IMG/VR virus record: IMGVR_UViG_3300048672_000578
Span: 1 to 39,395 of that record
Origin: a virus
Length of the DNA stretch: 39,395 nt
Reading direction: 5' to 3' (one strand)
Below, one piece after another: positions 5,101 through 38,454 of the stretch (position 1 is its first letter; each line of letters starts with the position of its first letter). The position numbers and the translations under genes are program-made. The notes beneath the pieces were generated by a model, which saw only the letters and a program-made list of their open reading frames with translations, made no database searches and was not told the DNA's origin.

Positions 5101-6659
5101 TAATCAGAAGTAAAATTAGAACTATTATTTAACCATATATAAAATTCAGGCTTTAACGTGATTTTAAATGTATTATAATTACCTTCAAGATTACCATCTA
5201 AAGATCTAAAATCTGCAATCCAATACGGTGTTGTTTTCTGACCATATTTGTTATAAAATTGTATTGCTGTTCTATATATTTCTTGATCTTTAAAATATGT
5301 TGCATTTTTATCATAAACAGTAGATTGTGTTAATTCATATTTAATATATTTACCTTCACCACCATTTGTTATACCATCATATTGATATTTATAAACATCA
5401 TGATTTAAATTAATTGAATCATTTTTATAATTATATTCATTTGTAAAAACATCTGTTATTAATTCTTCATGTCCTGTAATACCGTTAATATTTGGAGTAA
5501 TATCACCTATTTTAAATATTTTTATATTGTCATAAATTTTACAAATTTGAGATGAATCAAAACTATATGCTCTAAAATCTTTATTTACTTCAAAATTTAT
5601 TTCTTTATAATTAGAATAAAATAATCTATTAAATTTAGAATTTATATGTTTTGGTATAATTATATCTGAACCTAAAAATAAAAATTCTTCTAATGATAAT
5701 GTTGATATAATTGAACCATCATCAAATATTTCTAAATTACCAGATGTTGGTATTTCTCTATCATCTATTAAAGATATAGAAGGTTGTTCATTATAAGAAG
5801 TATATTTAATAGCATAAGTTCTTATGTTTGTCCATGTTTTATCAATATCTTTAATATAAATAACAGGAACTGTTGTTACTTTTTCATTAACATTTCCTCC
5901 ACCTAATGTACCATTTGTTAGTGATACCATTTCACTAAATGGTGATAGTTTTGTTTGTGATGAATTTAATCTATATAAATTATATACATATTGTATTCTA
6001 CCAGCTGTGTGTGTACCACCAGTTGTTAATTTTAATATAGATGGTTGATTTAAATCATAAGTACCAACAGTGTTTATAACATTTGAAGGTAAATCTATTA
6101 AATTTTCATAATCACCATTATTTAATGAATGATTTATATTAATAAATCTCATTTGATATTTAGAATCAACCCAATATACCTTATCTATTTTTTCATTTTC
6201 AAAATTATTTAAAACTTGTATTGGATTATTTGTACTAAATCCCAAGTTTCTTAAATATAACAATCTTATAGAAAAATTATTATAATTTATTCTCCATATA
6301 CAATCAAATCCATGATTATCTGTAGAAAAAATAACAAAACCATCTCTAATGTTTGTGTGACCTATAATTATTTGTTCCTGACTTTGTGATATAGATGAGT
6401 ATTGATTATTTATTTCATTATTTTCATAATTTAAATAATTATCATTATAATTAATTTCTTTATTAGGATAATTGATTATAGGTGTAGGTATTGTTAATAT
6501 TAAACTATTTCCTTTCTCATTAGTTACAGAACCTGTACTTTGAGTATCAGTAGCAACAATTCGTATGTTTCTACCTTCAAAATAAAAATCATTATTAAAT
6601 TGTGACTGTGCTACGTCTTGCATCATCCCTTTAAAAGAATGTTTTATAGATTTATTCAT
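2163..6659 (-). CDS. Muzzle (tail stem) protein of crAss-like phage
   Basis: A giant virion protein of 1498 residues, by far the largest gene here. It begins MNKSIKHSFKGMMQDVAQSQ, then FEGRNIRI and NEKGN, a start typical of the crAss-like muzzle/stem protein that forms the distal tube of the short tail. The rest is Asn/Tyr/Ser-rich with beta-type composition, and the last about 60 residues are Arg/Lys-rich. I chose ATG 6657-6659 because an upstream alternative (6692) would add 11 residues lying wholly inside the preceding GIY-YIG gene, and because family members start at this methionine. It overlaps that endonuclease by 8 nt. Function is from family knowledge and from its place between a ring protein and the cargo gene. 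Confidence 0.85.
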   Translation of the reverse strand: MNKSIKHSFKGMMQDVAQSQFNNDFYFEGRNIRIVATDTQSTGSVTNEKGNSLILTIPTPIINYPNKEINYNDNYLNYENNEINNQYSSISQSQEQIIIGHTNIRDGFVIFSTDNHGFDCIWRINYNNFSIRLLYLRNLGFSTNNPIQVLNNFENEKIDKVYWVDSKYQMRFININHSLNNGDYENLIDLPSNVINTVGTYDLNQPSILKLTTGGTHTAGRIQYVYNLYRLNSSQTKLSPFSEMVSLTNGTLGGGNVNEKVTTVPVIYIKDIDKTWTNIRTYAIKYTSYNEQPSISLIDDREIPTSGNLEIFDDGSIISTLSLEEFLFLGSDIIIPKHINSKFNRLFYSNYKEINFEVNKDFRAYSFDSSQICKIYDNIKIFKIGDITPNINGITGHEELITDVFTNEYNYKNDSINLNHDVYKYQYDGITNGGEGKYIKYELTQSTVYDKNATYFKDQEIYRTAIQFYNKYGQKTTPYWIADFRSLDGNLEGNYNTFKITLKPEFYIWLNNSSNFTSDYDIPIGYKVLIAERTLNDRTIVSNGILSTMMFNHKSNIESYSTSDVKQFSKENPKLPNILLRNCNETFLYGNTQPLKRCEHLENLVHVGGGPNPANEVTSPYYGDSDASGKFWQFNPMIQLYSPEILFNKNISLTSGLKLRIKGSLKNVYNASWNKEENLTDGSINTESKVYSGISPFYSNYRKNIIGSAYNNLDKGILAHPGGSEPNTIETNLFYRAYGNILITDIFSSNIIVNIPNTLNIISGSDPSNSIIYNSNYNNSISIKLTPTVNHSLISYTIFPDILNISTPYTIKICSDQNGQNVLSELTNVIGVQNITHNDTLSPSSLFDKTYDYFLVIDTAVNYKCTINISASVSGASSLVKQSNGNIVDINIHTNTFTNYYNKGNNTLFDLYGIPEITEKGQDFTTYNNDLNYRYSNSLQSCLTDGDSSYSDGGVYGRRIVSVNSDNNRCITFVTGDNDITVENWNRKSLENLFYDSGLDGDNNGLIGELVKSNEEIYLGGIYGGNTYEDKKRTNYIEIGDYQNIINNVVTIESPGDTYVQNFRFLRIVRKETDVKEQGTKQFEEIIEYTTETTIDLKNRNDVSFGNWDSKFQIRDADYHNYNYVYSQTQNLILNRDNNYLFKKVKNFDTNIITSKVKVAGEIIDNWTDILQNEVMTLDGKYGSINSLHNFKDELYAIQDNAIACISVQPRVQVQGSDGIAVQLGTGNVLERYKYLSTELGTRNKWSVINSPTAFYFYDSINNNLQICSGQNVDELSDLKGMHTFFVNNIDETYINRDNPIINSGICTGYDYLNNEVFFTFLQNNKSFTLNFDDNTKTFVSRYDYLPTRYLSKGNHFLAVEPNSKSIYKQYDGEYNKFFGQYYPSYIILNVNPEYDVDCVFDNINFKSECYLNNIDQPDKTLTHIQAYSDYQNSSLEHLILGRNNNLRRKFRDWNALIPRQQNKRERIRGNYIKLKLQFDNTNNYKFILHPLNVFYTV

Positions 6660-7047
6660 AATATGTAAATGATGTTTTATTTGAATTACCAATTTTTAAT
6701 TTTGTTTCTTCAGATAATCTACCAGATTTATCATTTGTATTTGTAAATTTACAATTTAAACCGTTTAATCCGACACAATTAAAAAATTCCTGATAATAAC
6801 GTTCTTTATTGTTAAGTTCTTCTATTTTACATAATTCAATTATTTCAAATATATGATTTTTTATACCATATTTATTAATAGAATTAAATAATTTTTTTTG
6901 ATTTATATATTTTGTTTTATCTGTGAAATAATTTTTAAATCTTTTATCTATATTAACTGATTGTCCAACATATATTTTATTACTAGGACTTGTTATTTTA
7001 TATATTCCTATTTTACTTTCCATCTTCAAAATGTCTAAGTTATTCAT
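6652..7047 (-). CDS. GIY-YIG homing endonuclease, short form
   Basis: A 131-residue protein with GIY in IGIYKI, YIG-type IYVGQS, and the conserved Glu in KERYYQ. It is closely related to the protein at 1486-2013 but stops soon after SEETKLKIGNSN, where the relative continues into NUMOD DNA-binding elements. The nuclease domain looks complete while the specificity tail is largely missing. Its stop codon is embedded in the muzzle start (TATTATGAATAA), suggesting that insertion or trimming preserved the neighbour's ATG. Nuclease activity is likely; targeting ability is uncertain. Confidence 0.85.
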   Translation of the reverse strand: MNNLDILKMESKIGIYKITSPSNKIYVGQSVNIDKRFKNYFTDKTKYINQKKLFNSINKYGIKNHIFEIIELCKIEELNNKERYYQEFFNCVGLNGLNCKFTNTNDKSGRLSEETKLKIGNSNKTSFTYYE

Positions 7048-10659: not shown

Positions 10660-11159
10660 TTAGGTAATCTTTTAATTACTGAATTCATCACTTGTTTTAA
10701 TTGATAAGCATAATCAGGTGCTGTTGCATATCCTGCTTTAGCAATTTCATCAAAAAACATTGCAGGTATATGTTTAACTTTTACAGCTGTTGTATATCGA
10801 GGATTTTTTAAAAAGAAATCTGTATGATCTGCAAATCCTTGAGCTGCTGATGGATATTTTCTAAAGTAATCTTTTACAGTATATTTAAATTTATTACCTG
10901 CTTTTATAATTTTTAAAATTACAGGAAATTTAACTTTATCTGTAGATAAATATTCAGTAGTAGTAATTAATTGTTCATTACCATTAACTCCATCTGTATC
11001 TTTAATTCCAAAAAAGTTATTACCTACTGCTTTAGAACCCCAACCACTTTCAAGAGCAGCTTGAGTTAAAGGTATGAGATAATGAAATCCTGAACGAACT
11101 TCTTCTTTTTTAGCTTCTGGTAAATAAACTTTTACAAATTCTTCTGGTGTAAGATTCAT
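10656..11159 (-). CDS. Endolysin, glucosaminidase family (FlgJ-like)
   Basis: 167 residues. The motif LIPLTQAALESGWGSKAVGN with catalytic Glu37, followed by NFFGIKD, is the signature of the glucosaminidase (PF01832) fold that cleaves the glycan chains of peptidoglycan. The C-terminal YAYQLKQVM is also typical. There is no signal peptide, so export would rely on a holin, and holin-like genes lie just upstream (12672-11778). The start ATG overlaps the stop of a GIY-YIG endonuclease by 4 nt (ATGA). The endolysin role in host lysis is well supported. Confidence 0.88.
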   Translation of the reverse strand: MNLTPEEFVKVYLPEAKKEEVRSGFHYLIPLTQAALESGWGSKAVGNNFFGIKDTDGVNGNEQLITTTEYLSTDKVKFPVILKIIKAGNKFKYTVKDYFRKYPSAAQGFADHTDFFLKNPRYTTAVKVKHIPAMFFDEIAKAGYATAPDYAYQLKQVMNSVIKRLPK

Positions 11160-11770
11160 GTTAAAAATTTTAAAGATGTTTTATTTTTATTTTGTTCTGT
11201 TAACATTGCTGTTAAAGTTGTTCTTTTCATATTAAAAAACTCAGCAGCTAAAGATGAAGTTTCAAATATTTTATTTGTAGAAGTATCTATTACTTTTTTA
11301 GCAGATGGATTTTTACCCCCTTTAGTAGCTTTAGAAATATTAGATTTCCAATCATTAGAAAATACTTTACCTTTCATCCAAATATTTTTACCTTTAAAGG
11401 CTTTTGATCTTTTTTGTTTTTCATGCTCAGACATTTTATAACCATAACAACCTTTTCCTCCTTTAGATATATTACATAATTTACTTCCAGATTTTATGTA
11501 ATAATCAATCCAATAAATTTCTCTTTCTTCCCATTTTTCTAAACATTTTTCTATTATTTCCATAATTGGTTTTTTACCATCTTTTAAAAAAGTTAATAAC
11601 CAGTTTGATAAATGTTTACTTCTTGAGTTTAATTGTATTTTGTAATTAGAATGTTGTATATATCTTTTTTTTGGTTCAATAGATTTTCCAACATATTTAA
11701 TTTCTAAAGTATCTGGATGTTTTAGTATATAAATATATGTAATCTTATTATTACATTCTTCTGGTGTCAT
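11156..11770 (-). CDS. GIY-YIG homing endonuclease with NUMOD3/NUMOD1 repeats
   Basis: 204 residues. The catalytic core is a variant: YIYILKHP for GIY and IKYVGKS for YIG, with the conserved Glu in EEREIYWIDYY. Downstream are two NUMOD3-like elements (GYKMSEHEKQKRSKAFKGKNIWMKG and GGKNPSAKK) and a NUMOD1-like helix-turn-helix (KIFETSSLAAEFFNMKRTT). It differs from the other two endonucleases here, so it was acquired separately. It is inserted inside the lysis cassette between the XhlA-like gene and the endolysin. A mobile role is likely. Confidence 0.85.
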   Translation of the reverse strand: MTPEECNNKITYIYILKHPDTLEIKYVGKSIEPKKRYIQHSNYKIQLNSRSKHLSNWLLTFLKDGKKPIMEIIEKCLEKWEEREIYWIDYYIKSGSKLCNISKGGKGCYGYKMSEHEKQKRSKAFKGKNIWMKGKVFSNDWKSNISKATKGGKNPSAKKVIDTSTNKIFETSSLAAEFFNMKRTTLTAMLTEQNKNKTSLKFLT

Positions 11771-21685: not shown

Positions 21686-23191
21686 TTAGTCTATGATAGA
21701 CGGTTTCAAAGTTGCAGTTCTTGATGGATCTTTAACCATTGCACCAGTACCACACATTGCAGTCATTGTTGCAGAGTCTTCCATTAACTGCATAATTCCA
21801 CCTCTACGTCCAGAGAAAGGATCTCTAATACCCGCCATGTAACCACGTAACTCATCGTCACCACGTACTTTAATTTTTTGGATATTAGGCTCTTCCATTG
21901 AACCAATGTAAAGGATATCATAACGATATGATTCAGCAACTCCTCCATCTGGATGAAGAACTTTGTTACGAACTTTATCATCATACATAGGGTCAACTTC
22001 TAACATAATATGAATATTGTTAGGAGCTCTCCATTCTGTAAATTGGAATCCACCTTGGAATGCGTTGTCATGGAATTTAGAACTAACTTGTTTAACAGCG
22101 TTTTGATTCGTGTTATCAAAGATAGCTTTCCATCCTGAAGCAGCAGCTGTAGCAGCTCTATTGAACTGAGCAGCTCCACGCTCACCTGTACGCAACATGA
22201 ATTTTCTTTCAGTAAAATCTAATTTACCTTCTGACAATTCAGACAATACATCTTCTAAAAGACGCATTGAGAATCTATTATATGTGATAGTATTAGATAC
22301 TTCCATTTGTTCTCTAATACCAGAACCAGCTTTGATTTCAATATTAGAATTCCCTTTATTTAAATAACGACCTTTTTCATCTCTATTTGTTTTACCAAAC
22401 ATGATAGTACGTGATTTAATTCTTGAGAATGCTTTTTCAAACTGCCAGTATACTTCTTGCATCCAAGTAGCTGATTTATGAACTTTTCCTGTGTTAGGAT
22501 CTCTTGTTTCAATACCTGCAAAATACACAGGTTCTACTTTAACATCAATCATTGCACCAGAAACTTTATGTTCCATACGTAATGTAGAAACTGAGTTTCT
22601 CATTAAGTAAGGTGAAGTAAATTGAATTCCAGCACCTTGTGTAGAAAGCTCATCTTCAGCATAAGAAGATTCAATAGAGAATCTATTTCCTGGTAAAAGC
22701 TCATCTCCAGGAATACCTGCTAATGATTCTTGACCACCCCATACTTCACATTCATAAATGTAATTTCCACCTTCTTCAAAAGGTTCATCTAAAATTCTAA
22801 TTTGGTATACGTCTGGTCTTGGACCTGCAATAACATGCATTTTAGTAAACCATTTTTCTCCAAATACTAATTGGAATTTTGTTCTTGCAACACCAACACC
22901 AACAGTGTTAGTATCTACAACAGAACCTTGAAATCTTGCTTCAACAAGTGGAATATTTCTTTCGTCACTTCCAACTACTTTCCAAACAAAATCATCTGCT
23001 GTATTTAAAACTTTTTCAGGAAATAAAGATAAGGTTGTATCTAAATTTTTCATTCCTGAGTTTTGTAACAAAACAGTTGTTAATGGAGAAACTAATTGTG
23101 GTTGACTTCCAAAAATAGCACCAATGTGATTCTTTAGTGTTAAACCTGACCATGCTTTTCCTTTGGTCATTACAAACTTACCTAAACTCAT
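21686..23191 (-). CDS. Major capsid protein (HK97 fold, crAss-like)
   Basis: 501 residues. MSLGKFVMTKGKAWSGLTLKNHIGAIFG at the start, then RNIPLVEARFQGS, FGEKWFTKMHVIAGPRPDVYQI and the C-terminal IRDPFSGRRGGIMQLMEDSATMT (each quoted in part) are the hallmark of crAss-like major capsid proteins, which build the icosahedral head. Length fits the family. The DNA is less AT-rich than flanking genes, consistent with strong expression. It lies 30 nt after the acidic scaffold-like gene and is followed by a strong terminator, so promoter 24331-24362 plus terminator 21643-21672 define a scaffold-capsid unit. Confidence 0.93.
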   Translation of the reverse strand: MSLGKFVMTKGKAWSGLTLKNHIGAIFGSQPQLVSPLTTVLLQNSGMKNLDTTLSLFPEKVLNTADDFVWKVVGSDERNIPLVEARFQGSVVDTNTVGVGVARTKFQLVFGEKWFTKMHVIAGPRPDVYQIRILDEPFEEGGNYIYECEVWGGQESLAGIPGDELLPGNRFSIESSYAEDELSTQGAGIQFTSPYLMRNSVSTLRMEHKVSGAMIDVKVEPVYFAGIETRDPNTGKVHKSATWMQEVYWQFEKAFSRIKSRTIMFGKTNRDEKGRYLNKGNSNIEIKAGSGIREQMEVSNTITYNRFSMRLLEDVLSELSEGKLDFTERKFMLRTGERGAAQFNRAATAAASGWKAIFDNTNQNAVKQVSSKFHDNAFQGGFQFTEWRAPNNIHIMLEVDPMYDDKVRNKVLHPDGGVAESYRYDILYIGSMEEPNIQKIKVRGDDELRGYMAGIRDPFSGRRGGIMQLMEDSATMTAMCGTGAMVKDPSRTATLKPSIID

Positions 23192-24391: not shown

Positions 24392-24412
24392 TATTAAGTA
24401 ATAGCTTTTATT
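24392..24412 (-). promoter_or_regulatory. Conserved upstream promoter element, copy 1
   Basis: Minus-strand sequence AATAAAAGCTATTACTTAAT, overlapping the portal stop codon and starting 30 nt upstream of the -33 box of the scaffold/capsid promoter. The same sequence occurs at the same distance upstream of two other promoters. Confidence 0.75.
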
Positions 24413-26822
24413 AACCTTTTGTTGTTGTTTTCTTTTTAATTCTATTAATACTTTGGTCTACTTTTTTAGCATCCATTTGATCTTTATGTTTATCCATATC
24501 TTGTTTTAAAGCTAACATTTTTTCTAAATGAGAATTTTTAACTTTCTCTTTATCTAAATTTAACTTTTCAATATCTAACGGATTAACTACACCATCATCT
24601 TCAACAACCTCATCTGGTTGCATACTTAACTTAAGTTGTTCAATATAGATTTTAGTATCAGAATCTTTATCAATTTTATATTGTTCTAATTCTAATTTTC
24701 TATTTTCTAATTCAGCAGCTTGTGCCATTGCAGCTTGGGTATCTTTAGATTGTTGTTGAGATGCTTCAGAATTACGTTGATGTATTTGTTCTTCTGCTTC
24801 TTCAAGTCTTCTACGCATATCTGATAAAGAAGGACTAAAATATATATCCATAATAGTAGACATTGTTCCACCATTTTGTAAGAATGCTTGAGCATTAGAT
24901 TTAATCATTTGTTCAAGCTCTTGTGTTTTAGAACTAGAGGTAATAACTAAACCATAATCATTTTCACAAAATTCTTCTGGATCTAAATTTAATATTTGAA
25001 TAGATTGATCATCTAATATGTATTGAGCTTTTTTACTATTTCCTTTTAGTGCTTCTTTAGCTGTTTCAAGAAAACATTCTAATACTCTAATTTTACATTG
25101 TTCATGTAACATAAACCAATATTCAGTAATATGACTAGATTGATTTACAGAACGTTCTACACCACCAACAGTTTCTCTATTATCAATTTGTCCTTGGCGT
25201 TGTGCAGTTACTCCTGCAATTTCACCCATTTCCATTTTAATAAATTCAAGTAACTGAATATGTTGTTGAATATATGAACCTGTTTCCATATCCATTACAC
25301 GACCACCTTGAGTATTCATACTACCAGCAAGTTTACCAGTAGCAGCTCCTTGGTTACCTTCTTTAAAAGAATCTATTACAGCAATTTTATTAACCACTGC
25401 AAAGTGTAACCATTTATCCATTTCCCAGTTTTCAGGTATTTTAGAAATATCTAATTCCATTATCTTACCATAGTTAGTTGAAATAGCTTTATTAAGTCTA
25501 TCCCAAATAACATCATACATATATTGATAGTTTTTACATCTATCAACTAATGATACAGCTTTAGATTGATTGGTATTATATATTTGACCAACTATACCAG
25601 GACCACAAATAGAAGGATTATGTAATTTATTATATTGAACTTTACGAGGTTTTAAATTTAAATAAATATCTTTACCTATTTTAACACCTTCCCACCATTC
25701 ACTAACCCACATTGAAGTTTCTTCTTCTCCTAATGTTTTATTTGGAATATATTCTTCTGAAACAGTTTTATATTGTTCTTCACCATATTCATCATAAAAC
25801 TTTATTTTTTTAACTTGTTTTATTGATTTCCATAATACTTTAAGAACTCTAATGTTACCAGTATCATCTGTATAGTTAGAACCAAAAAAGTGTCCGTTAA
25901 GTTCAGCAAGATTAAAAATTGTATCATACATTCCTTCAACTCCAGTATTCAAAGCATCACGTAAAAGAACGTGATTGTTTTGATCATCTGAATATGACCC
26001 TTTAGATGATGTTGTACTATATTCTAAGATATAATCAATATCTTCAGGTTTAAGTTCATCATGATAAACATCTATAATTTTATGAGGACTCCAATGATCC
26101 TGTATAATAATAATAGATGAATCTTCAATTCTATCAGAATTACCAGAACGTACTGTATGTACTTTTAAAGGATTAAGTTTTATCATTACAGGTTCATCAT
26201 GAATAATATCACACTGATATATTTCTTCAGCAAATATTAAAGCATCTTTAAAACCATCATTAAATGTTCTATCAAATCTTTGTTCTTGACTATAATGTTT
26301 TAGAATTTGACTAGCTGTTTTTTCACGAATATCTTGCCAACTATATTTCATATGTTTAGCAAGTTCATCCATTTTAGCTTTTAATTCTTCATCTTTATAA
26401 TTAGATTTAATAAAATCTGTAATCTTTTCTTTTAAAAATAATTTTTTATCTTCTTCTTTTTTACTAATAGCATCTGGATTAGTAACTATAACTGACCAAT
26501 CAAATCTTCTTTTAATTTCTTCACCAACCAATAAATCTATTTTAGGTACAAGTATTGGATTGTGAGGAATATTATCTGGAACAAATGATGCATCTATTTG
26601 ATGTGGATTAACAACGTTAGTTAAATCTCTAACATCAACAATCCCATTATATAGATTCAAGTTAATTATTTTATTCTGAAGACTTTTTCTTACTCTTTCA
26701 TTATTGTAGAAAGAATGTCTATCTGCATAATCAACACAATCTTTTCTCCATTGTAAATTCTTTTGTTTATAAGGGAGTCTTTGTCTTGGTAATGTAATAG
26801 AATTTATCCTAGGTGTTGACAT
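24411..26822 (-). CDS. Portal protein
   Basis: 803 residues, the usual size of crAss-like portals. The protein sits between the terminase and the scaffold/capsid genes. Recognisable features are the N-terminal RQRLPYKQKNLQWRKDCVDY, the central KIDLLVGEEIKRRFDW, the conserved AGVTAQRQGQIDNRETVGGV near residue 550, and a long charged helical C-terminus with AEEQIHQRNSEASQQQSKD. The portal forms the dodecameric DNA gate at the capsid vertex and docks the terminase. It has its own promoter at 26848-26879. Confidence 0.9.
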   Translation of the reverse strand: MSTPRINSITLPRQRLPYKQKNLQWRKDCVDYADRHSFYNNERVRKSLQNKIINLNLYNGIVDVRDLTNVVNPHQIDASFVPDNIPHNPILVPKIDLLVGEEIKRRFDWSVIVTNPDAISKKEEDKKLFLKEKITDFIKSNYKDEELKAKMDELAKHMKYSWQDIREKTASQILKHYSQEQRFDRTFNDGFKDALIFAEEIYQCDIIHDEPVMIKLNPLKVHTVRSGNSDRIEDSSIIIIQDHWSPHKIIDVYHDELKPEDIDYILEYSTTSSKGSYSDDQNNHVLLRDALNTGVEGMYDTIFNLAELNGHFFGSNYTDDTGNIRVLKVLWKSIKQVKKIKFYDEYGEEQYKTVSEEYIPNKTLGEEETSMWVSEWWEGVKIGKDIYLNLKPRKVQYNKLHNPSICGPGIVGQIYNTNQSKAVSLVDRCKNYQYMYDVIWDRLNKAISTNYGKIMELDISKIPENWEMDKWLHFAVVNKIAVIDSFKEGNQGAATGKLAGSMNTQGGRVMDMETGSYIQQHIQLLEFIKMEMGEIAGVTAQRQGQIDNRETVGGVERSVNQSSHITEYWFMLHEQCKIRVLECFLETAKEALKGNSKKAQYILDDQSIQILNLDPEEFCENDYGLVITSSSKTQELEQMIKSNAQAFLQNGGTMSTIMDIYFSPSLSDMRRRLEEAEEQIHQRNSEASQQQSKDTQAAMAQAAELENRKLELEQYKIDKDSDTKIYIEQLKLSMQPDEVVEDDGVVNPLDIEKLNLDKEKVKNSHLEKMLALKQDMDKHKDQMDAKKVDQSINRIKKKTTTKG

Positions 26823-26928: not shown

Positions 26929-29181
26929 CTATATTGCTTCTCCAATATTAGATATAAAGTTTTTGTTATAGTTTCTTTCAAAAAATTTATCTTGTGATAA
27001 TTTCTTAATTTGTTTATGTTGATTTTCTATTGCAGAGTTTGTTCTTTTAACTCTATCTTCTCTTAAAAGAAATAACATACCTGCGGCAGATACACGGTCA
27101 AAGTTACCATCACTATTCCAAGCAACACATTCTTCAAGATAAGGTATACTTCTAACATGATGTAATTTTAAACTCATATCTTCTTCGTCACCTTCATTAT
27201 ATCTTGTAAGCATATATTGTGCTTGTAACAATCTACCCCATTTGTTTATTTCTTTATTAGCATGTGTACCTTTAGCTTTATTACCGTATAAATTGGTTGC
27301 TTTAACCATATCCATATCTTTAAGTATTTGAGGTACATCACATAAATAATGTAAACAATTTCTTGCATCAAAATAACTAAATAAACCTTTTAAGTTACTT
27401 TCATAGTTAGCTTCTGCATTATAAAACTTTAACATTCTTAATGCAGTTTCATACGCATCATTTGCTAATCTTGGTCTACCAGTATATTCTGCAACTATTC
27501 TATCTGTAAATGTATCCATTACAAATATACTAAATAATGATGTTCCTGTATCTGCATCAATAGGGTCAATACCTGCAATATATCTACCACGTTGTATTTC
27601 ACCATTTGCATTTTTCTTAGGCATTTCAAATATTTCTAAACAACCTGTACGATCTGTATCTGAACTATCATATGCTCTAAGTGGATATTTATCACCTGTT
27701 GGTCGCCAATCAACATCACCATTTTCAGTATAAACTAATTCTCCAATATAATGTTCTGCTAAAAATGATTCTTTTTTAGGACCAATACTTTCAAGATAAT
27801 CTTTTATATCTGCAACAGGAAATACTGTTCCTTCAGTACGCATAATAGCTTCCTGTGGAGTAATAGGCTCCTCTGCTTTCTTTTGAGTAATAGCTCTAGC
27901 ATCAGATGAATTATATTTTACCTCATGTCTATCTAAAAGAATTTGAATTAATGCTTTTATTATGTCTGGTTCACCTGTAGATAAATCATAACATTCATTA
28001 CGATTTAAGTAAGCACCCCAAAAGAAACCACATTCTAAATCACCATTAGCTCCTTTATCATAAACATTTGGTATTCCATATATGTTAAATGCTCCTGGTT
28101 TATAAAATAGTTTTTCAGAACCTTCAAATGAAGCTCCTTCAGTACCACCTGTTCCACCTGCTAACATAAATCCAAATGCTACATCACCATCTTCCACAGC
28201 TTTTCTATTTACGTTCCATGCTTTTTCAAGGTTAGGAAATAATCCATCTTCTTCATAATGAATATATGGACCACGAATACCCCTTGCTTTATCAGGGTTA
28301 TCTTTTAAAGATATACATTTAACAGATGATAATAAGCCTTTACGTGAACCATATTCATCTTTATAACCTAACTGTACATACATCTCTTTTGTTGCATCTA
28401 CAGTACGCATACGAGGTAATGGAGTATGTTCTGCTATCCAGTCTAAGTTATCTAATATTTTACCCCATATTCCACTATCTCCAGATAAGAATGTTTTTTC
28501 AGAAGCGAGGTGGTGATTAATATTACCAGTACCTCTAAATACAAACATATTTCTAGGTGACTCTGAAGCATTCTTAAAACTAAATCCAATACCACGAGTT
28601 TTTAATACTTTACCATGTTTACCATTACGTTTAGCTTGAGCTGTATAATGAAAATATAAATAATCACCTAACCAAGGTTTAGCAAACTTACGTACACGTT
28701 CTCCTTGTGATTTACCACCTTTACCACCTGTAGCAACTGTATCAACTAACCATATTGGACTATAGTTCCAATAAAAATATAATTCACCAGGAATCCATTC
28801 TCCATCAGATTCACGAACCATACCATGTTTCCATCGTCTAAGTTCTTCTTTCCAAAATTCAGCATATTCAGATTTAGGATTACTATTAGGTGGTAAATTA
28901 GTATATCGTTTATTCTTTTCAAAAAAGATAGCTCTTTCTCTAAAGTAATCTACATCTTCTAATATATGTGGATTAGTAACATCTACAATGATTCTACCAT
29001 CATTATATAACTCTGTATGTTTAGGTCTATTTTTAGCAAATCCACGTATGTGTTCAGGTGCAATAAGATTCTTAATAAACTTTACAGTTGATATATATTC
29101 AATTAAATTTTCATATACTTCTCTAGGTAATTCTTTTTTTAGTTCATCTGTTATTGGAGATTGATATTTATTTAATTCCAT
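26929..29181 (-). CDS. terL: Terminase large subunit (packaging ATPase-nuclease)
   Basis: 750 residues. The ATPase domain has a deviant P-loop-like segment KTRGIGFSFK (residues 194-203) and a Walker B-like YIHYEEDG (306-313). The RNase H-like nuclease domain begins with AGIDPIDADTG (about 536-546), whose first Asp fits metal-binding motif I. Overall pattern (NYSPIWLVDTVATGGK, RGIRGPYIHYEEDG) is the crAss-like TerL that pumps and cuts DNA during packaging. The start overlaps the end of the GroEL-like gene by 10 nt, implying coupled translation. Confidence 0.92.
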   Translation of the reverse strand: MELNKYQSPITDELKKELPREVYENLIEYISTVKFIKNLIAPEHIRGFAKNRPKHTELYNDGRIIVDVTNPHILEDVDYFRERAIFFEKNKRYTNLPPNSNPKSEYAEFWKEELRRWKHGMVRESDGEWIPGELYFYWNYSPIWLVDTVATGGKGGKSQGERVRKFAKPWLGDYLYFHYTAQAKRNGKHGKVLKTRGIGFSFKNASESPRNMFVFRGTGNINHHLASEKTFLSGDSGIWGKILDNLDWIAEHTPLPRMRTVDATKEMYVQLGYKDEYGSRKGLLSSVKCISLKDNPDKARGIRGPYIHYEEDGLFPNLEKAWNVNRKAVEDGDVAFGFMLAGGTGGTEGASFEGSEKLFYKPGAFNIYGIPNVYDKGANGDLECGFFWGAYLNRNECYDLSTGEPDIIKALIQILLDRHEVKYNSSDARAITQKKAEEPITPQEAIMRTEGTVFPVADIKDYLESIGPKKESFLAEHYIGELVYTENGDVDWRPTGDKYPLRAYDSSDTDRTGCLEIFEMPKKNANGEIQRGRYIAGIDPIDADTGTSLFSIFVMDTFTDRIVAEYTGRPRLANDAYETALRMLKFYNAEANYESNLKGLFSYFDARNCLHYLCDVPQILKDMDMVKATNLYGNKAKGTHANKEINKWGRLLQAQYMLTRYNEGDEEDMSLKLHHVRSIPYLEECVAWNSDGNFDRVSAAGMLFLLREDRVKRTNSAIENQHKQIKKLSQDKFFERNYNKNFISNIGEAI

Positions 29182-30644
29182 TTATCTTTATTTAAAACAA
29201 TACAGTCTGTAGATAAAACAGTTTTAGCTATAGATACAGCATTTTCTAATGCACATCTTGTTACTTTAAGTGGGTCTATAATATTTTTATCAAACATATT
29301 TTTTTTAATTTCATACCCTATAATATCTTCAGGATAAATTATTTTATATGGTTGTAATATAGAATAAAGTAATTTAGCTTCAATTGTTTCTGGTTCTTTT
29401 TTAATATTAGACCATGCTTTTGTTAAAGCAACTCCACCACCTTCAACAATACCTTCTTCTAATGCACAAGCTACAGCTTTAACTGCATCATCATATCTAT
29501 CATACTTTTCTTTAACTTCAATCTCTGAACCTCCACCTACTTTAATAAGTGCAACTTTAGCTGTTAAATTTTCAATACGTTTATTAATTATTTCAACATC
29601 GTGTTTTGTAAGTTCTTTAGATTTAGACAGTTCTGTAAGATTTTCTATAATATCAGCAACATCTACATCATCATGTTTGATAAGTAATGAATTATTTTTA
29701 GTTATCTTACATGATTGTAAATTACCAAATACACCTGTATGAATTGTTTTAATATTTGTAACAATAATAGAACCTGTAAAATCAGATAAATCTCTTAAGA
29801 AATCTTTTCTAACTGGACCAAATCCTGGAGTTTTAATTACACAAAGTTGAATATTACCACTTAGAACATTAGATTCTAATTTACGTAATTCTTTTTCAGT
29901 TATATCTTCTACAATAATTAATAATGGTTTTCCTGATTGAGCAAATGTATTAAGTACATTTTGCATTGGAACTAAATCTTCTATTTTACCATCTATTAAT
30001 AATACAGACGGTTTATCAAAAACACATTCACCTTTTTTAAGATTATTTACAAAGTGTTTAGAAAAATAAGATACATCTAATTGCATACCATTAATTAATT
30101 CTACACTATCTTTTTGATTAGTAGATTCTTCAACTTTAATTATATTAGAAAAGTTATAAGCCTGTTGAATAATATCCCCAATCTGTATATCATTATTAGC
30201 AGATATACTAGCAACATATTTAATGTCTTCACGTTTTAATTCCTTTGAATTAAGTTTTAATTGTTCAATTACTTTTGGTATAATTTCATCAAATGCTTTA
30301 TTGATTTCATTTGAATCAAAATCTTTTAAATTTTGTATAAAAGCATTAGCTAATACAATAGCTGTTGTAGTTCCATCTCCAGCTAAATCAACTTGTAATT
30401 CAGCTACTTCTTTAACTAATTGTGCTCCTATATTCTCTATTGCATTTTTAAAATTTATTTCTCTTGCTACAGATACACCATCTTTTGTTATCTTATATTT
30501 ATCAAATGCAGTATTATCTGGTATAATAACTGTTTTACCATTTGGTCCCATAGTCTTAGCTACAGCATTACATAACTTTTGTATACCATTAAATAATAAA
30601 TCTCTAGCTTCTTTTTCAAAATATATTTCTTCCATATTATTCAT
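29172..30644 (-). CDS. groEL: GroEL-like chaperonin (phage Hsp60)
   Basis: 490 residues, clearly homologous to GroEL along the whole length. ATP-site motifs are intact: TMGPNGKTV (31-39), ITKDGVSVAREI with Asp55 (equivalent to Asp52), AGDGTTTA with Asp91 (Asp87), and Asp386 in YDDAV (Asp398, needed for hydrolysis). The apical domain has KPLLIIVEDI and KTPGFGPVRKDFLRDL, and EEGIVEGGGVAL closes the intermediate region. About 20 residues are missing before the DPLKVTR motif, and there is no Gly-Met tail. It overlaps the upstream gene by 8 nt and terL by 10 nt; a GroES-like gene is encoded upstream. Likely folds virion proteins. Confidence 0.93.
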   Translation of the reverse strand: MNNMEEIYFEKEARDLLFNGIQKLCNAVAKTMGPNGKTVIIPDNTAFDKYKITKDGVSVAREINFKNAIENIGAQLVKEVAELQVDLAGDGTTTAIVLANAFIQNLKDFDSNEINKAFDEIIPKVIEQLKLNSKELKREDIKYVASISANNDIQIGDIIQQAYNFSNIIKVEESTNQKDSVELINGMQLDVSYFSKHFVNNLKKGECVFDKPSVLLIDGKIEDLVPMQNVLNTFAQSGKPLLIIVEDITEKELRKLESNVLSGNIQLCVIKTPGFGPVRKDFLRDLSDFTGSIIVTNIKTIHTGVFGNLQSCKITKNNSLLIKHDDVDVADIIENLTELSKSKELTKHDVEIINKRIENLTAKVALIKVGGGSEIEVKEKYDRYDDAVKAVACALEEGIVEGGGVALTKAWSNIKKEPETIEAKLLYSILQPYKIIYPEDIIGYEIKKNMFDKNIIDPLKVTRCALENAVSIAKTVLSTDCIVLNKDKWN

Positions 30645-31203
30645 AATCTAATCCGTCTTCAAATAATCCAAAACTTCTAGCACCTTTAGTTTTACCTTCT
30701 AATTCTTTTTGTTCTGCTAATACTTCTTTATAAGCAGATTTCATATCTTTCATAATTGTAGGTACTGATTTTAAAGCACCTGTAATTGTAGCTAATGTGT
30801 TTACAACACTTCCATTAGCAGTTCGTTCTTGTAATAATTCATCAGTTGATTCTAAATAATTAGATATATCATCTGCTGCTTTTAAAGAAGATTTATATAG
30901 TTTAGCTATTGGGCTTATTGATTTAGATTTATAAAAATCAATTGCTGTTTGCATTATAGCATCTATTTTCCATTCAGGAGGTAATCCAATATCTTTAACT
31001 ATTTCTTTACATCTATCATCATCATTTGTAGTATAAATATAATCAGATCTAATATCTACATAATAATAAATAAATAATACTTCTTTAAATGCTGTTTCTT
31101 TATTACGATTTTTATCTCTTTTAAGAATTGCTTTAAAAGGCAACAGCCCCCAAGCTTCTTCTGAAACCTGTAGGCTGTAATCTTTCATTTCAAATAATTT
31201 CAT
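30637..31203 (-). CDS. Conserved protein upstream of chaperonin/terminase
   Basis: 188 residues. MKLFEMKDYSLQVSEEAWGL then PFKAILKRDKNRNKETAFKEV is a pattern I associate with a conserved crAss-like protein encoded upstream of the large terminase. The C-terminal half is helical (NYLESTDELLQERTANG and SAYKEVLAEQKELEGK). It overlaps the chaperonin start by 8 nt. Position makes it one candidate for the small terminase subunit, but no DNA-binding motif is clear, so I leave function open. Confidence 0.45.
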   Translation of the reverse strand: MKLFEMKDYSLQVSEEAWGLLPFKAILKRDKNRNKETAFKEVLFIYYYVDIRSDYIYTTNDDDRCKEIVKDIGLPPEWKIDAIMQTAIDFYKSKSISPIAKLYKSSLKAADDISNYLESTDELLQERTANGSVVNTLATITGALKSVPTIMKDMKSAYKEVLAEQKELEGKTKGARSFGLFEDGLDYE

Positions 31204-31391
31204 TATTTTTTAGTTTCAACTTCTTGTTCAACATCAGGTTGATCTTCTTTACAATGATTTGTATTTACAAATTGTATTACATTTTGTAATGCTTGTGCAA
31301 CTGTTGCTGAATCTTGTAAATTAAATACTCCTGCTTTTGATGAAGCATTTAATGCTTGTTCTAAAATTTTAATTGCTTGTTCTGTTTTCAT
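31203..31391 (-). CDS. Small helical protein
   Basis: 62 residues. The N-terminal two thirds form amphipathic helices (EQAIKILEQALNASSKAGVF and SATVAQALQNVIQFVNTN); the tail is acidic (EDQPDVEQEVE). It shares one base with the next gene and lies 1 nt after the GroES-like gene, so it is part of the chaperonin-terminase operon. No family is recognised. Confidence 0.5.
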   Translation of the reverse strand: MKTEQAIKILEQALNASSKAGVFNLQDSATVAQALQNVIQFVNTNHCKEDQPDVEQEVETKK

Positions 31392-31392
31392 A

Positions 31393-31758
31393 TTATCTAT
31401 TATCTTTTGCTTTAATTACTCTATCTTCTACAAATGCAAATCTTTGTCCGTTTACTTCAATTAAATCTAACTGAACCTCTCTAACTTCCTCATATTGATT
31501 GTTTGCTTCATATCCTTTTGGTTTCATTAATTTTTCAATATCAATCAATACTTTCTGTCCTATTTCAACACCATTTACCATTGGTCCTTTAGCAACTATA
31601 AATTGACAATCTGAAATCATATTATCAGATAATATTAAATTACCATCTGCTTCTAATGTGTTTAAAGTAATACATACTTTATTAAACATTGGTTCTAATG
31701 GAAACTTTCCCATTAAGTCTAAAACATCATCTTGTGTTAAATTTTTTTGTTCTCCCAT
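31393..31758 (-). CDS. groES: GroES-like co-chaperonin
   Basis: 121 residues. PMFNKVCITLNTLEADGNLILSD aligns with the GroES start (PLHDRVIVKR followed by the mobile loop GGIVLTG): the hydrophobic NLIL would be the GroEL-binding tripeptide region. VAKGPMVNGVEIGQKVLIDIEKL matches the GVGxxxxxGDxVxF strand pair, and the end (GQRFAFVEDRVIKAK) fits the last strand (EVLIMSESDIL). It is longer than GroES by about 20 residues, as are some phage co-chaperonins such as T4 gp31. The GroEL-like gene is two genes downstream in the same operon, strengthening the call. Confidence 0.78.
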   Translation of the reverse strand: MGEQKNLTQDDVLDLMGKFPLEPMFNKVCITLNTLEADGNLILSDNMISDCQFIVAKGPMVNGVEIGQKVLIDIEKLMKPKGYEANNQYEEVREVQLDLIEVNGQRFAFVEDRVIKAKDNR

Positions 31759-32027
31759 TTCTCTTTTAAATTATCTTTTTGTTTTTTTAACTTATTAAAT
31801 ATTCTATAGTTAGTATATAACTTACCTATATGAACATAAATAAAGTTAGTTTTTAATTTATTAAATTGTTCTTCTGTTTCAATATCATCTATCTCTAATG
31901 ATGATATTTTTTCTCTTGTAAATTTGTATGGAGATGTTACTATTTTCTTAATAACCTCATCTCTTAAATTGTATTTTAATCCTAATCTATGTATTAATAT
32001 TTTTATCTTATCATCATTACTTCTCAT
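31737..32027 (-). CDS. Conserved small basic helical protein
   Basis: 96 residues, strongly basic. KIKILIHRLGLKYNLRDEVIKKIV looks like a helix-turn-helix-like start, and KFTREKISSL with EEQFNKLKTNFIYVHIGKLY is a segment I have seen in small phage proteins near terminase genes. It overlaps the GroES-like gene by 22 nt and the upstream gene by 11 nt. DNA binding is plausible, and it is a possible small-terminase candidate; neither is shown. Confidence 0.45.
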   Translation of the reverse strand: MRSNDDKIKILIHRLGLKYNLRDEVIKKIVTSPYKFTREKISSLEIDDIETEEQFNKLKTNFIYVHIGKLYTNYRIFNKLKKQKDNLKEKWENKKI

Positions 32028-32415
32028 TATCTACTATATTAAAATTAAATACTACTTTAAAGTTTTTTGAATCAATACTTAATTCAGGAATAAATACAGG
32101 TGATATTTTACCATCTATAATTATTTTTTTCTTTCTAAGTGATGTTAATATATTTTGAAGAGAATTATCACTCAATCCTTTTTTAAATATATCATCTTCT
32201 TTAATTTTTAATTTAGTGTCATAATCAAATAATATTTTCCATAGTATTTTATCATTTGTTATTTCTTTTTTGTATAAAAAATGATAATATAAAAATAAAG
32301 CTAATACTTGTTGTTGTTGATTATTTAACTTATGAAACGATTTAGTAACATCTAACCATCTAAAAAATAAATCTTTTAGTTTAACATTCAAGTTAGCTAT
32401 TTTTATATTATTCAT
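32017..32415 (-). CDS. Putative winged-helix protein
   Basis: 132 residues. DDIFKKGLSDNSLQNILTSLRKKKIIIDGKISPVFIPEL has the recognition-helix plus wing pattern of a winged-helix domain in the second half (quoted from about residue 74, in part). The first half is helical (LNNQQQQVLALFLYYHFLYKK). It overlaps both neighbours by 8-11 nt. It could be a transcription factor or a small terminase subunit; the sequence does not decide. Confidence 0.45.
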   Translation of the reverse strand: MNNIKIANLNVKLKDLFFRWLDVTKSFHKLNNQQQQVLALFLYYHFLYKKEITNDKILWKILFDYDTKLKIKEDDIFKKGLSDNSLQNILTSLRKKKIIIDGKISPVFIPELSIDSKNFKVVFNFNIVDNEK

Positions 32416-34404: not shown

Positions 34405-34770
34405 TTATTTTTCATATTTTTTTAAATATTTTACAGCTTCATTTAATAAGTCAACACTATCTCTAAATTTTCCTAATGCTGTATTACAAGTATCACATAA
34501 TAAACCTCTAACATTTCCTGTAATATGACAATGATCTACAGATAATCTTCTTTTTGATTTATTTGGATGTTTACATATTTCACAACAATAATTTTGTTTT
34601 TCTAATAATTTATCATAATAATCTAATGTTATTCCGTATTTAGACATTAAATGTTTTTCTCTATAATTTTCAACAGAACATGGTGTACATACAGAAGCAT
34701 AATAACCATTTTTACGTTTATTAAAATAACTTGTTTCTTTTTCTTGTTTACAACAACTACAAATTCTCAT
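34405..34770 (-). CDS. Endonuclease VII family HNH nuclease
   Basis: 121 residues. CSCCKQEKETSYF with VCTPC forms one zinc-binding group; CCEICKHP and CDTCN form the second. LSVDHCHITGNVRGLLCDTCNTALG (quoted in two parts in families) carries the HNH-type catalytic His and is the signature of recombination endonuclease VII (T4 gp49, PF02945). The C-terminal LLNEAVKYLKKYEK is the usual helix. Members resolve branched DNA before packaging, but free-standing copies also act as mobile nucleases. It has its own promoter and stands alone between an ncRNA terminator and the next promoter. Confidence 0.88.
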   Translation of the reverse strand: MRICSCCKQEKETSYFNKRKNGYYASVCTPCSVENYREKHLMSKYGITLDYYDKLLEKQNYCCEICKHPNKSKRRLSVDHCHITGNVRGLLCDTCNTALGKFRDSVDLLNEAVKYLKKYEK

Positions 34771-38085: not shown

Positions 38086-38451
38086 GGGGGTGACAGGCTT
38101 TGACATAGGTCATAGTAAATATAATAATCAGCCAGAGAGATAACTGTAAACTAAGGTGAATACAAGAAATGACAAGAATACGATCGCTCAAACAAGAGCA
38201 AACATGCAAGTAGTTCATAACATCTTAAATGGTGGAACTGAAGTTAAATCAAACGACATTGTCGAATTTGAATTAGCAGCATAATAGAATTTTAGATTAT
38301 TTTAAGATTTCTTCATTAGATTAAATGAAGTGGTGGAATCACTGAGTAATCAGTTGACCTCGTGTATCTAAACACATAAATCTATAGTAAAGCTGTAATA
38401 ATTATTATATTGAATTTATTTATGGACGCGGCTTCGATGCCGCCACCTCCA
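38086..38451 (+). ncRNA. ssrA: Transfer-messenger RNA (tmRNA), phage-encoded
   Basis: The acceptor stem GGGGGUG (38086-38092) pairs with CACCUCC (38444-38450), with a G-U pair at position 3 (38088-38448), the alanine identity element, and discriminator A38451. The T arm is GCGGC, UUCGAU, GCCGC (38428-38443). UAGUU at 38211-38215 precedes the tag frame starting CAU 38216, ending GAA UUA GCA GCA UAA UAG. Downstream are hairpins CTTCAT/ATGAAG (38311-38330) and CTGA/TCAG (38342-38353) in the pseudoknot region. The 3' end reads CUA where CCA would be. Length about 366 nt is normal. It would rescue stalled ribosomes and tag proteins for proteolysis; partner SmpB is not in this window. Confidence 0.93.
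38216..38284 (+). other. tmRNA tag reading frame, 22 codons
   Basis: Directly in register after UAGUU, the frame CAU AAC AUC UUA to GAA UUA GCA GCA encodes HNILNGG at the start and VEFELAA at the end, followed by UAA UAG. With the alanine carried by tmRNA the tag would be 23 residues. The terminal LAA is the ClpXP-type degron; the residue before it is Glu where host tags usually have Ala. Confidence 0.8.
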
Positions 38452-38454
38452 CTA

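Follow-up and report, generated by a model that had tools for sequence, protein, structure and literature searches.

The window analysed here, the 39,395 bases of the IMG/VR virus record IMGVR_UViG_3300048672_000578, was found to contain a GroEL-like chaperonin gene and, with two genes between them, a GroES-like co-chaperonin gene, both within the head and packaging operon of a crAss-like phage and with the GroEL gene running into the terminase gene terL. Both genes were found in every close relative surveyed. With moderate confidence, the two products are read as a cage and a lid that are made together and reserved for the 56-kDa phage capsid protein, possibly acting as a single ring, where the client, the number of rings and the pairing are what we infer.

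Identity of the GroEL-like and GroES-like proteins

The two chaperonin genes were as follows (aa, amino acids; AF2, AlphaFold2).

29172..30644 (-): GroEL-like chaperonin, 490 aa, 54.6 kDa (PF00118, phrog_5725, AF2)
31393..31758 (-): GroES-like co-chaperonin, 121 aa, 13.7 kDa (AF2 with Foldseek and VIA, hhalign, crAss001 gp15 family)

The GroEL open reading frame (ORF) was found to match PF00118 (Cpn60) with 149 bits, against a curated cut-off of 34.3, and phrog_5725 'chaperonin groEL' with 391 bits, and a PDB sequence search returned GroEL matches down to E=1e-87. The AF2 model (pLDDT 89.5) contained the three-domain GroEL fold and aligned with 4ki8 at Z 39.8 over 481 residues. The residues T30, G32, P33, K51, D52, G53, D87, G88, T89, D398, G414 and D495, numbered as in E. 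coli GroEL and counted, like all GroEL residues below, over 48 relatives, were found to be identical in 48/48; this set comprises the ATP, magnesium and catalytic residues. The protein is a true GroEL homologue of the Cpn60 group I family and, as far as sequence can tell, is catalytically intact, in agreement with the initial annotation made from the letters of the window. A near-invariant W was also present at the GroEL C-terminus (window 29172-29183), where its codon shares its bases with the terL start (AAATGGAATTAA). This W is probably a by-product of the overlap, and functional constraint was set aside as its cause because the overlapping terL start probably forces it.

In two relatives, the GroEL (L008, 11079-13571, and L009) was 831 aa long with an apparent intein, and was found in the same place before terL. 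The insert interrupted the ATP motif between GDG and TTT, ended in HN before T, and contained a LAGLIDADG_3 domain above the cut-off and an intein-splicing match below the cut-off. No description of a GroEL intein turned up in the literature search.

The 121-aa ORF alone gave no match in Pfam, in PHROGs, in phmmer against PDB or in a Pfam Cpn10 search of the record. Its relatives were found to include crAss001 gp15, annotated as 'putative 10kDa chaperonin', which gave a direct Cpn10 match below the cut-off. The AF2 model, for which 49 family members were the input, was a barrel (pLDDT 76) with residues 37–46 as its sole long low-confidence loop (pLDDT below 50). The 'NLIL' motif (residues 40-43) lies inside this loop, the expected site of the mobile loop, and an L-x-L motif was common there, but not universal, among the relatives. 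The top 30 Foldseek matches of the model were all Cpn10, and in VIA-align the best 15 rows were Cpn10 or T4 gp31 at Z 7.2–9.5 (up to 9.5 over 80-86 residues; T4 gp31 at 7.3), followed by GroES-like domains of dehydrogenases. In a profile–profile comparison by hhalign, the family profile matched 70-odd bacterial GroES at 96.1% with most of the chain aligned (E 3e-9, a value from a single-profile library), whereas none of 20 column-shuffled versions exceeded 2.7%, and none of the adjacent operon families 0.5%. A profile from the close clade alone reached only 20%, so the GroES signal needs the wider family. The 121-aa protein is a member of the GroES/Cpn10 superfamily, a remote one that the Pfam Cpn10 model misses; its GroES-like character, claimed in the initial annotation, was upheld by both fold and family profile. 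The dN/dS against the nearest relative was 0.13 for GroEL and 0.16 for GroES, which indicates purifying selection on both genes.

The packaging operon and its relatives

The minus strand was found to contain the order VpsT-like, HU-like, GroES, 62-aa ORF, gp16-like, GroEL, TerL, portal and capsid, in which the genes around the chaperonin pair were as follows (nt, nucleotides).

32017..32415 (-): counterpart of the crAss001 'VpsT-like regulator' gene, first in the conserved block (28-41% identity)
31737..32027 (-): counterpart of the crAss001 'protein HU' gene, with a 22-nt overlap with the GroES start
31203..31391 (-): 62-aa small ORF between GroES and the gp16-like gene, recognised in about half of the relatives
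30637..31203 (-): crAss001 gp16-like conserved protein, 188 aa (phrog_16390, E=2e-5; alignment with Steigviridae homologues)
26929..29181 (-): terminase large subunit, TerL (phrog_6681; 39-42% identity to Asinivirinae TerL)
24411..26822 (-): portal protein, 93 kDa (phrog_6547)
21686..23191 (-): crassvirus major capsid protein, 501 aa, 56.1 kDa, the proposed client (PF23898, E=4e-173)

The ORFs were found to overlap by 22 nt (HU/GroES), 8 nt (gp16/GroEL) and 10 nt (GroEL/terL), and GroEL can fairly be taken as co-translated with TerL. The initial annotation had placed the pair two genes apart, with the groEL end overlapping terL and the genes leading into terminase, portal and capsid; the two intervening ORFs (31203-31391 and 30637-31203), the 10-nt overlap and the PHROG and Pfam assignments agree with it on each point.

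The capsid protein matched the Pfam crassvirus capsid family PF23898 (E=4e-173), the portal and TerL matched PHROG head-and-packaging families, and TerL was 39–42% identical to that of Steigviridae/Asinivirinae such as crAss001, cr126_1 and cr85_1. Judged by capsid, portal and TerL and by the VpsT-HU-GroES-gp16-terL order as in crAss001, the window is from a crAss-like phage (Crassvirales) of Steigviridae-like type, its position within Crassvirales being read from TerL identity. The relatives with long contigs reached ~91–105 kb, so the window is a fragment.

The main survey was anchored on TerL and ignored the chaperonins, and it covered contigs with a terL at least 63% identical to that of the window and at least 4.2 kb upstream. 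Both chaperonin genes were found in 32/32 distinct contigs, with GroEL directly before terL in all of them, and in 38/38 when chaperonin-anchored contigs were pooled in. The co-occurrence in related phages that the idea of a matched pair depends on was thereby observed. In the terL identity range of 59–60%, one contig (L108) contained GroEL upstream of gp16 and an adjoining 99-aa GroES-like ORF missed by the profile, and another (L109) contained GroES only. The 99-aa ORF (L108:7104-7403 (+), directly before GroEL) appeared GroES-like by eye (IGDEV, roofless) and scored only 5.6 bits against a bacterial GroES profile.

Below 55% terL identity, GroES was present in 14/14 contigs, a count biased by the many contigs fetched with a GroES query, and GroEL was present only in phi14:2 and cr111_1. 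Whole named Steigviridae-like genomes, which reduce this bias, were found to contain GroES in 8/8 and GroEL in 2/8, and among long whole IMG/VR records GroEL was present in 12/12 of the window's clade and 0/8 of the gut type. By these profiles, both genes were absent from the crassvirus-type genomes tested outside this group (Suoliviridae, Intestiviridae and Fpv3). GroES is a member of the packaging operon across the Steigviridae tested, and a GroEL next to terL is confined to the window's clade; the claim of a pair built into the packaging operon holds for this clade, whereas the wider Steigviridae mostly contained GroES without GroEL. Matches to Pfam Cpn10 below the cut-off were seen away from terL in Suoliviridae cr114_1 and cr273_1 (NC_055904, 25984-26112 (-); NC_055897, 29394-29531 (+)), and the Steigviridae profile may underestimate how widely crassviruses have lid proteins.

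Across 35 contigs, the distances of GroEL, GroES, TerL and gp16 were found to be correlated (0/999 permutations in all cases; r 0.71-0.77 among GroEL, GroES and terL), which points to genes inherited together. The largest amino-acid distance was 0.72 for GroEL against 0.37 for TerL. In a GroEL tree without the longest branches, the GroELs of the clade formed one group outside bacterial GroEL, with a support of 100 in the SH-like approximate likelihood ratio test (SH-aLRT). For a single origin of crassvirus GroELs, the approximately unbiased (AU) test gave p 0.56 with phi14:2 and cr111_1, and 0.33 when L108 was added; long branches limit this tree, and the data fit a single acquisition for all Steigviridae GroELs but neither show nor reject it. 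The gene g098 was rejected as the phi14:2 GroES, being the VpsT-like gene; g096 encodes the GroES-like protein.

Remodelling, proposed function and rival explanations

The equatorial segment 416–492 of GroEL was found to contain 40–67 residues, against 76–78 in bacteria. The positions of E. coli E461, S463 and V464 were gaps in 48/48 relatives, and helix P, the main inter-ring helix, was reduced to 0–4 residues in 45/48. The inter-ring contacts R452, E461, S463, V464 and A109 were deleted or substituted in the clade, with R452 not conserved; E461, S463 and V464 and, as a fourth, R452 belong to the positions changed in SR1, a GroEL engineered to form single rings. A short segment was also found in phi14:2 and cr111_1, and one of 70–82 residues in DAC23, immuto, elemo, phi38:1 and ctfjg026. 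The C-terminal GGM tail was missing, with typically 3 residues present after position 525. The deletion of the inter-ring helix suggests that the protein may form single rings or a non-canonical ring pair.

In the apical face, Y199, F204, L237 and L259 were largely kept, whereas the hydrophobic GroES and substrate contacts L234, V263 and V264 were polar or charged and Y203 was replaced by H, A or another residue. The R197–E386 ion pair, the importance of which is known from PMC9598537, was lost in 46/48 relatives, as in OBP and EL. The polar changes in the apical face suggest that GroEL, GroES and client may share a private interface rather than act as a general folding machine. The roof of GroES contained 8 residues, where that of E. 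coli GroES has 17, and is short in T4 gp31 too, and an insertion was present after the GD(K/Q)V motif, near the place of the gp31 insertion. Two further features set the GroES of the clade apart from the gut GroES-only forms: an N-terminal extension of ~18 residues, predicted to include a helix and missing from those forms, and a loop with a median length of 22 residues against 28.

In the proposed mechanism, GroEL and GroES would be translated from an operon tightly overlapping with terL and so be made during head assembly. The phage GroEL would bind an unfolded phage protein and then take ATP, its own GroES would cap it through the hydrophobic loop of residues 37-46, and the caged client would fold before being released. 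The likeliest client would be the 56.1-kDa major capsid protein, by analogy with gp23 for T4 gp31. A canonical chaperonin chamber has a general client limit of ~60 kDa, so the capsid protein fits, whereas the portal (93 kDa), TerL (86 kDa) and the muzzle protein (173 kDa) have predicted masses too large for it. For folding under a roofless lid, the known precedent is T4 gp23, similar in size to the window capsid protein. The EL chaperonin, as single rings, is reported to accept larger clients (PMC5934643). A chamber dedicated to the folding of virion proteins, as first proposed, remains the best reading and accommodates the 56-kDa capsid protein, but the muzzle protein named with it is too big for a canonical chamber. 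Possession of a lid alone, by which the phage would recruit the GroEL of its host, is widespread in the family, and the window's clade has its own chaperonin.

Several points weigh against a dedicated cage and lid. Specific co-evolution of GroEL and GroES is not claimed, as their partial correlation beyond terL (0.53) was barely above the 0.47 obtained for GroEL and the adjacent gp16-like gene, taken as control. The polar positions at L234, V263 and V264 could mean weak lid binding. Loss of helix P was rejected as a proof that rings are single: AR9 has a single-ring chaperonin (PMC9598537), yet the AR9-like phage PBS1 keeps a long segment. The length of helix P does not track ring number in known phage chaperonins, so single-ring action of the clade GroEL is plausible but uncertain. 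Gut relatives with homologous heads were without a phage GroEL, so GroEL is not essential to the crassvirus capsid fold, and the pairing, the folding and the client proposed here draw on sequence and models.

The phage GroES might instead serve mainly the host GroEL, as T4 gp31 does, while the phage GroEL works separately and without a lid like those of EL, OBP and AR9. This is unlikely, although GroES was found without a phage GroEL in 6/8 named Steigviridae genomes, the chaperonins of EL, OBP and AR9 work without a co-chaperonin (PMC9598537, PMC7185714), the R197–E386 pair is lost as in OBP and EL, and the GroEL apical contacts are partly polar. The GroES of the window's clade has diverged from the gut GroES-only forms in its loop, its helical extension is present wherever GroEL is fixed, and within the clade the two genes were never separate. 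In a general role in stress or takeover, the pair would add to the chaperone capacity of the host and serve many late or host proteins, none of them a client specific to the virion. This would suit other phage pairs, found close to replication genes or to genes of unrelated function (phi38:1 and immuto by DNA polymerase, elemo among tail-fibre genes), and the chaperonin genes near phage polymerases in a 2024 survey (PMC11348598). In all relatives checked, the pair of the window lies among the head and packaging genes of one operon, and the remodelled, partly polar binding face of GroEL speaks against a generalist, which makes this role quite improbable.

That the GroES-like protein is an unrelated small barrel next to GroEL by coincidence could be argued from the single 121-aa protein, with no Pfam, PHROG or PDB sequence match, and from the 20% of the close-clade profile. 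It is very hard to reconcile with 15 best structural matches that were all Cpn10 or gp31 (Z 7.2-9.5), with 96% for the whole-family profile against at most 2.7% in the 20 column shuffles, and with the direct sub-cut-off Cpn10 match of crAss001 gp15. A decaying passenger GroEL acquired from the host would account for a protein shorter than bacterial GroEL and fast-evolving (0.72 against 0.37 for TerL); it is contradicted by the dN/dS of 0.13, the ATP residues kept in 48/48, the presence of GroEL in every clade contig with enough upstream sequence and the single clade group with support 100, and its probability is negligible. A bolder form of the dedicated cage and lid, an obligate single-ring virus chaperonin with its own roofless lid and one capsid client that evolved stepwise in crassviruses from a lid-only, host-dependent state, is possible but doubtful. 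If true, such a chaperonin would be lidded, unlike those of EL, OBP and AR9, and incapable of double-ring allostery, unlike GroEL.

Known systems and other features of the window

Within Steigviridae, cr111_1 (Lahndsivirus rarus) was found to contain, like the window, an annotated GroEL and a 10-kDa chaperonin in the late operon upstream of terL, whereas its GroEL lies ~4 kb upstream of terL, before the VpsT-like gene, and is 28% identical to that of the window. Cellulophaga phage phi14:2 shares with the window a 490-aa GroEL (36.8% identity) with a short equatorial segment in the same operon, as well as a GroES-like protein (g096), but its GroEL lies ~4.8 kb upstream of terL and its grouping with the window's clade has an AU p of 0.56. 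The gp15 of crAss001 is homologous to the window GroES and occupies the same slot between the HU-like gene and gp16, in a genome without a phage GroEL; its mobile loop is longer and it contains no N-terminal extension. T4 gp31 shares with the window GroES the Cpn10 fold, the short roof, the insertion in the second half and an analogous proposed client of similar size, whereas T4 has no GroEL, using that of the host, and gp31 is only ~12% identical to the window GroES.

The jumbo phages EL, OBP and AR9 encode GroEL homologues too, with R197-E386 lost or altered in EL and OBP; single rings are known in OBP and AR9 and ring splitting in EL (PMC9598537, PMC7185714). These chaperonins act without a co-chaperonin, whereas the window GroEL has a GroES and is far closer to bacterial GroEL. 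Some phages encode both GroEL and GroES (PMC7185714), and the two were found already annotated in Cellulophaga phi38:1, Flavobacterium immuto and elemo, ctfjg026 and crassvirus cr111_1. In phi38:1, immuto, elemo and ctfjg026, unlike the window, the pair lies outside the head and packaging operon in the records examined, and the GroES still matches bacterial GroES by sequence. No paper on chaperonin pairs in Crassvirales was found in literature searches of incomplete coverage, so that an earlier description is possible. The apparently new elements are the GroEL–terL junction, fixed in a group of uncultured crassviruses, and, combined with it, the deletion of the inter-ring helix and a lid resembling gp31.

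At stake is whether a phage chaperonin can do without a lid and whether a single ring would suffice. One virus family was found to contain a series of lid only (crAss001), lid with distant GroEL (phi14:2, cr111_1) and lid with terminase-linked GroEL (the window's clade). A comparison of this series would show what a phage gains from owning the whole cage and whether a chaperonin without inter-ring contacts and GGM tail folds the capsid protein, and it may aid the production of soluble crassvirus capsid proteins.

Outside the operon, a tmRNA gene, unusual in a phage, was found at 38086-38454 (+) by ARAGORN (tag ANMQVVHNILNGGTEVKSNDIVEFELAA) and by Rfam RF00023 (58 bits). Three free-standing GIY-YIG-type homing endonuclease-like ORFs were present among the tail genes (1486-2013, 6652-7047 and 11156-11770 (-)), the last of them slightly below the GIY-YIG cut-off and with NUMOD3. 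Upstream of the chaperonin operon, the window contained a recombination endonuclease VII-like protein at 34405-34770 (-) (PF02945, 91 bits).

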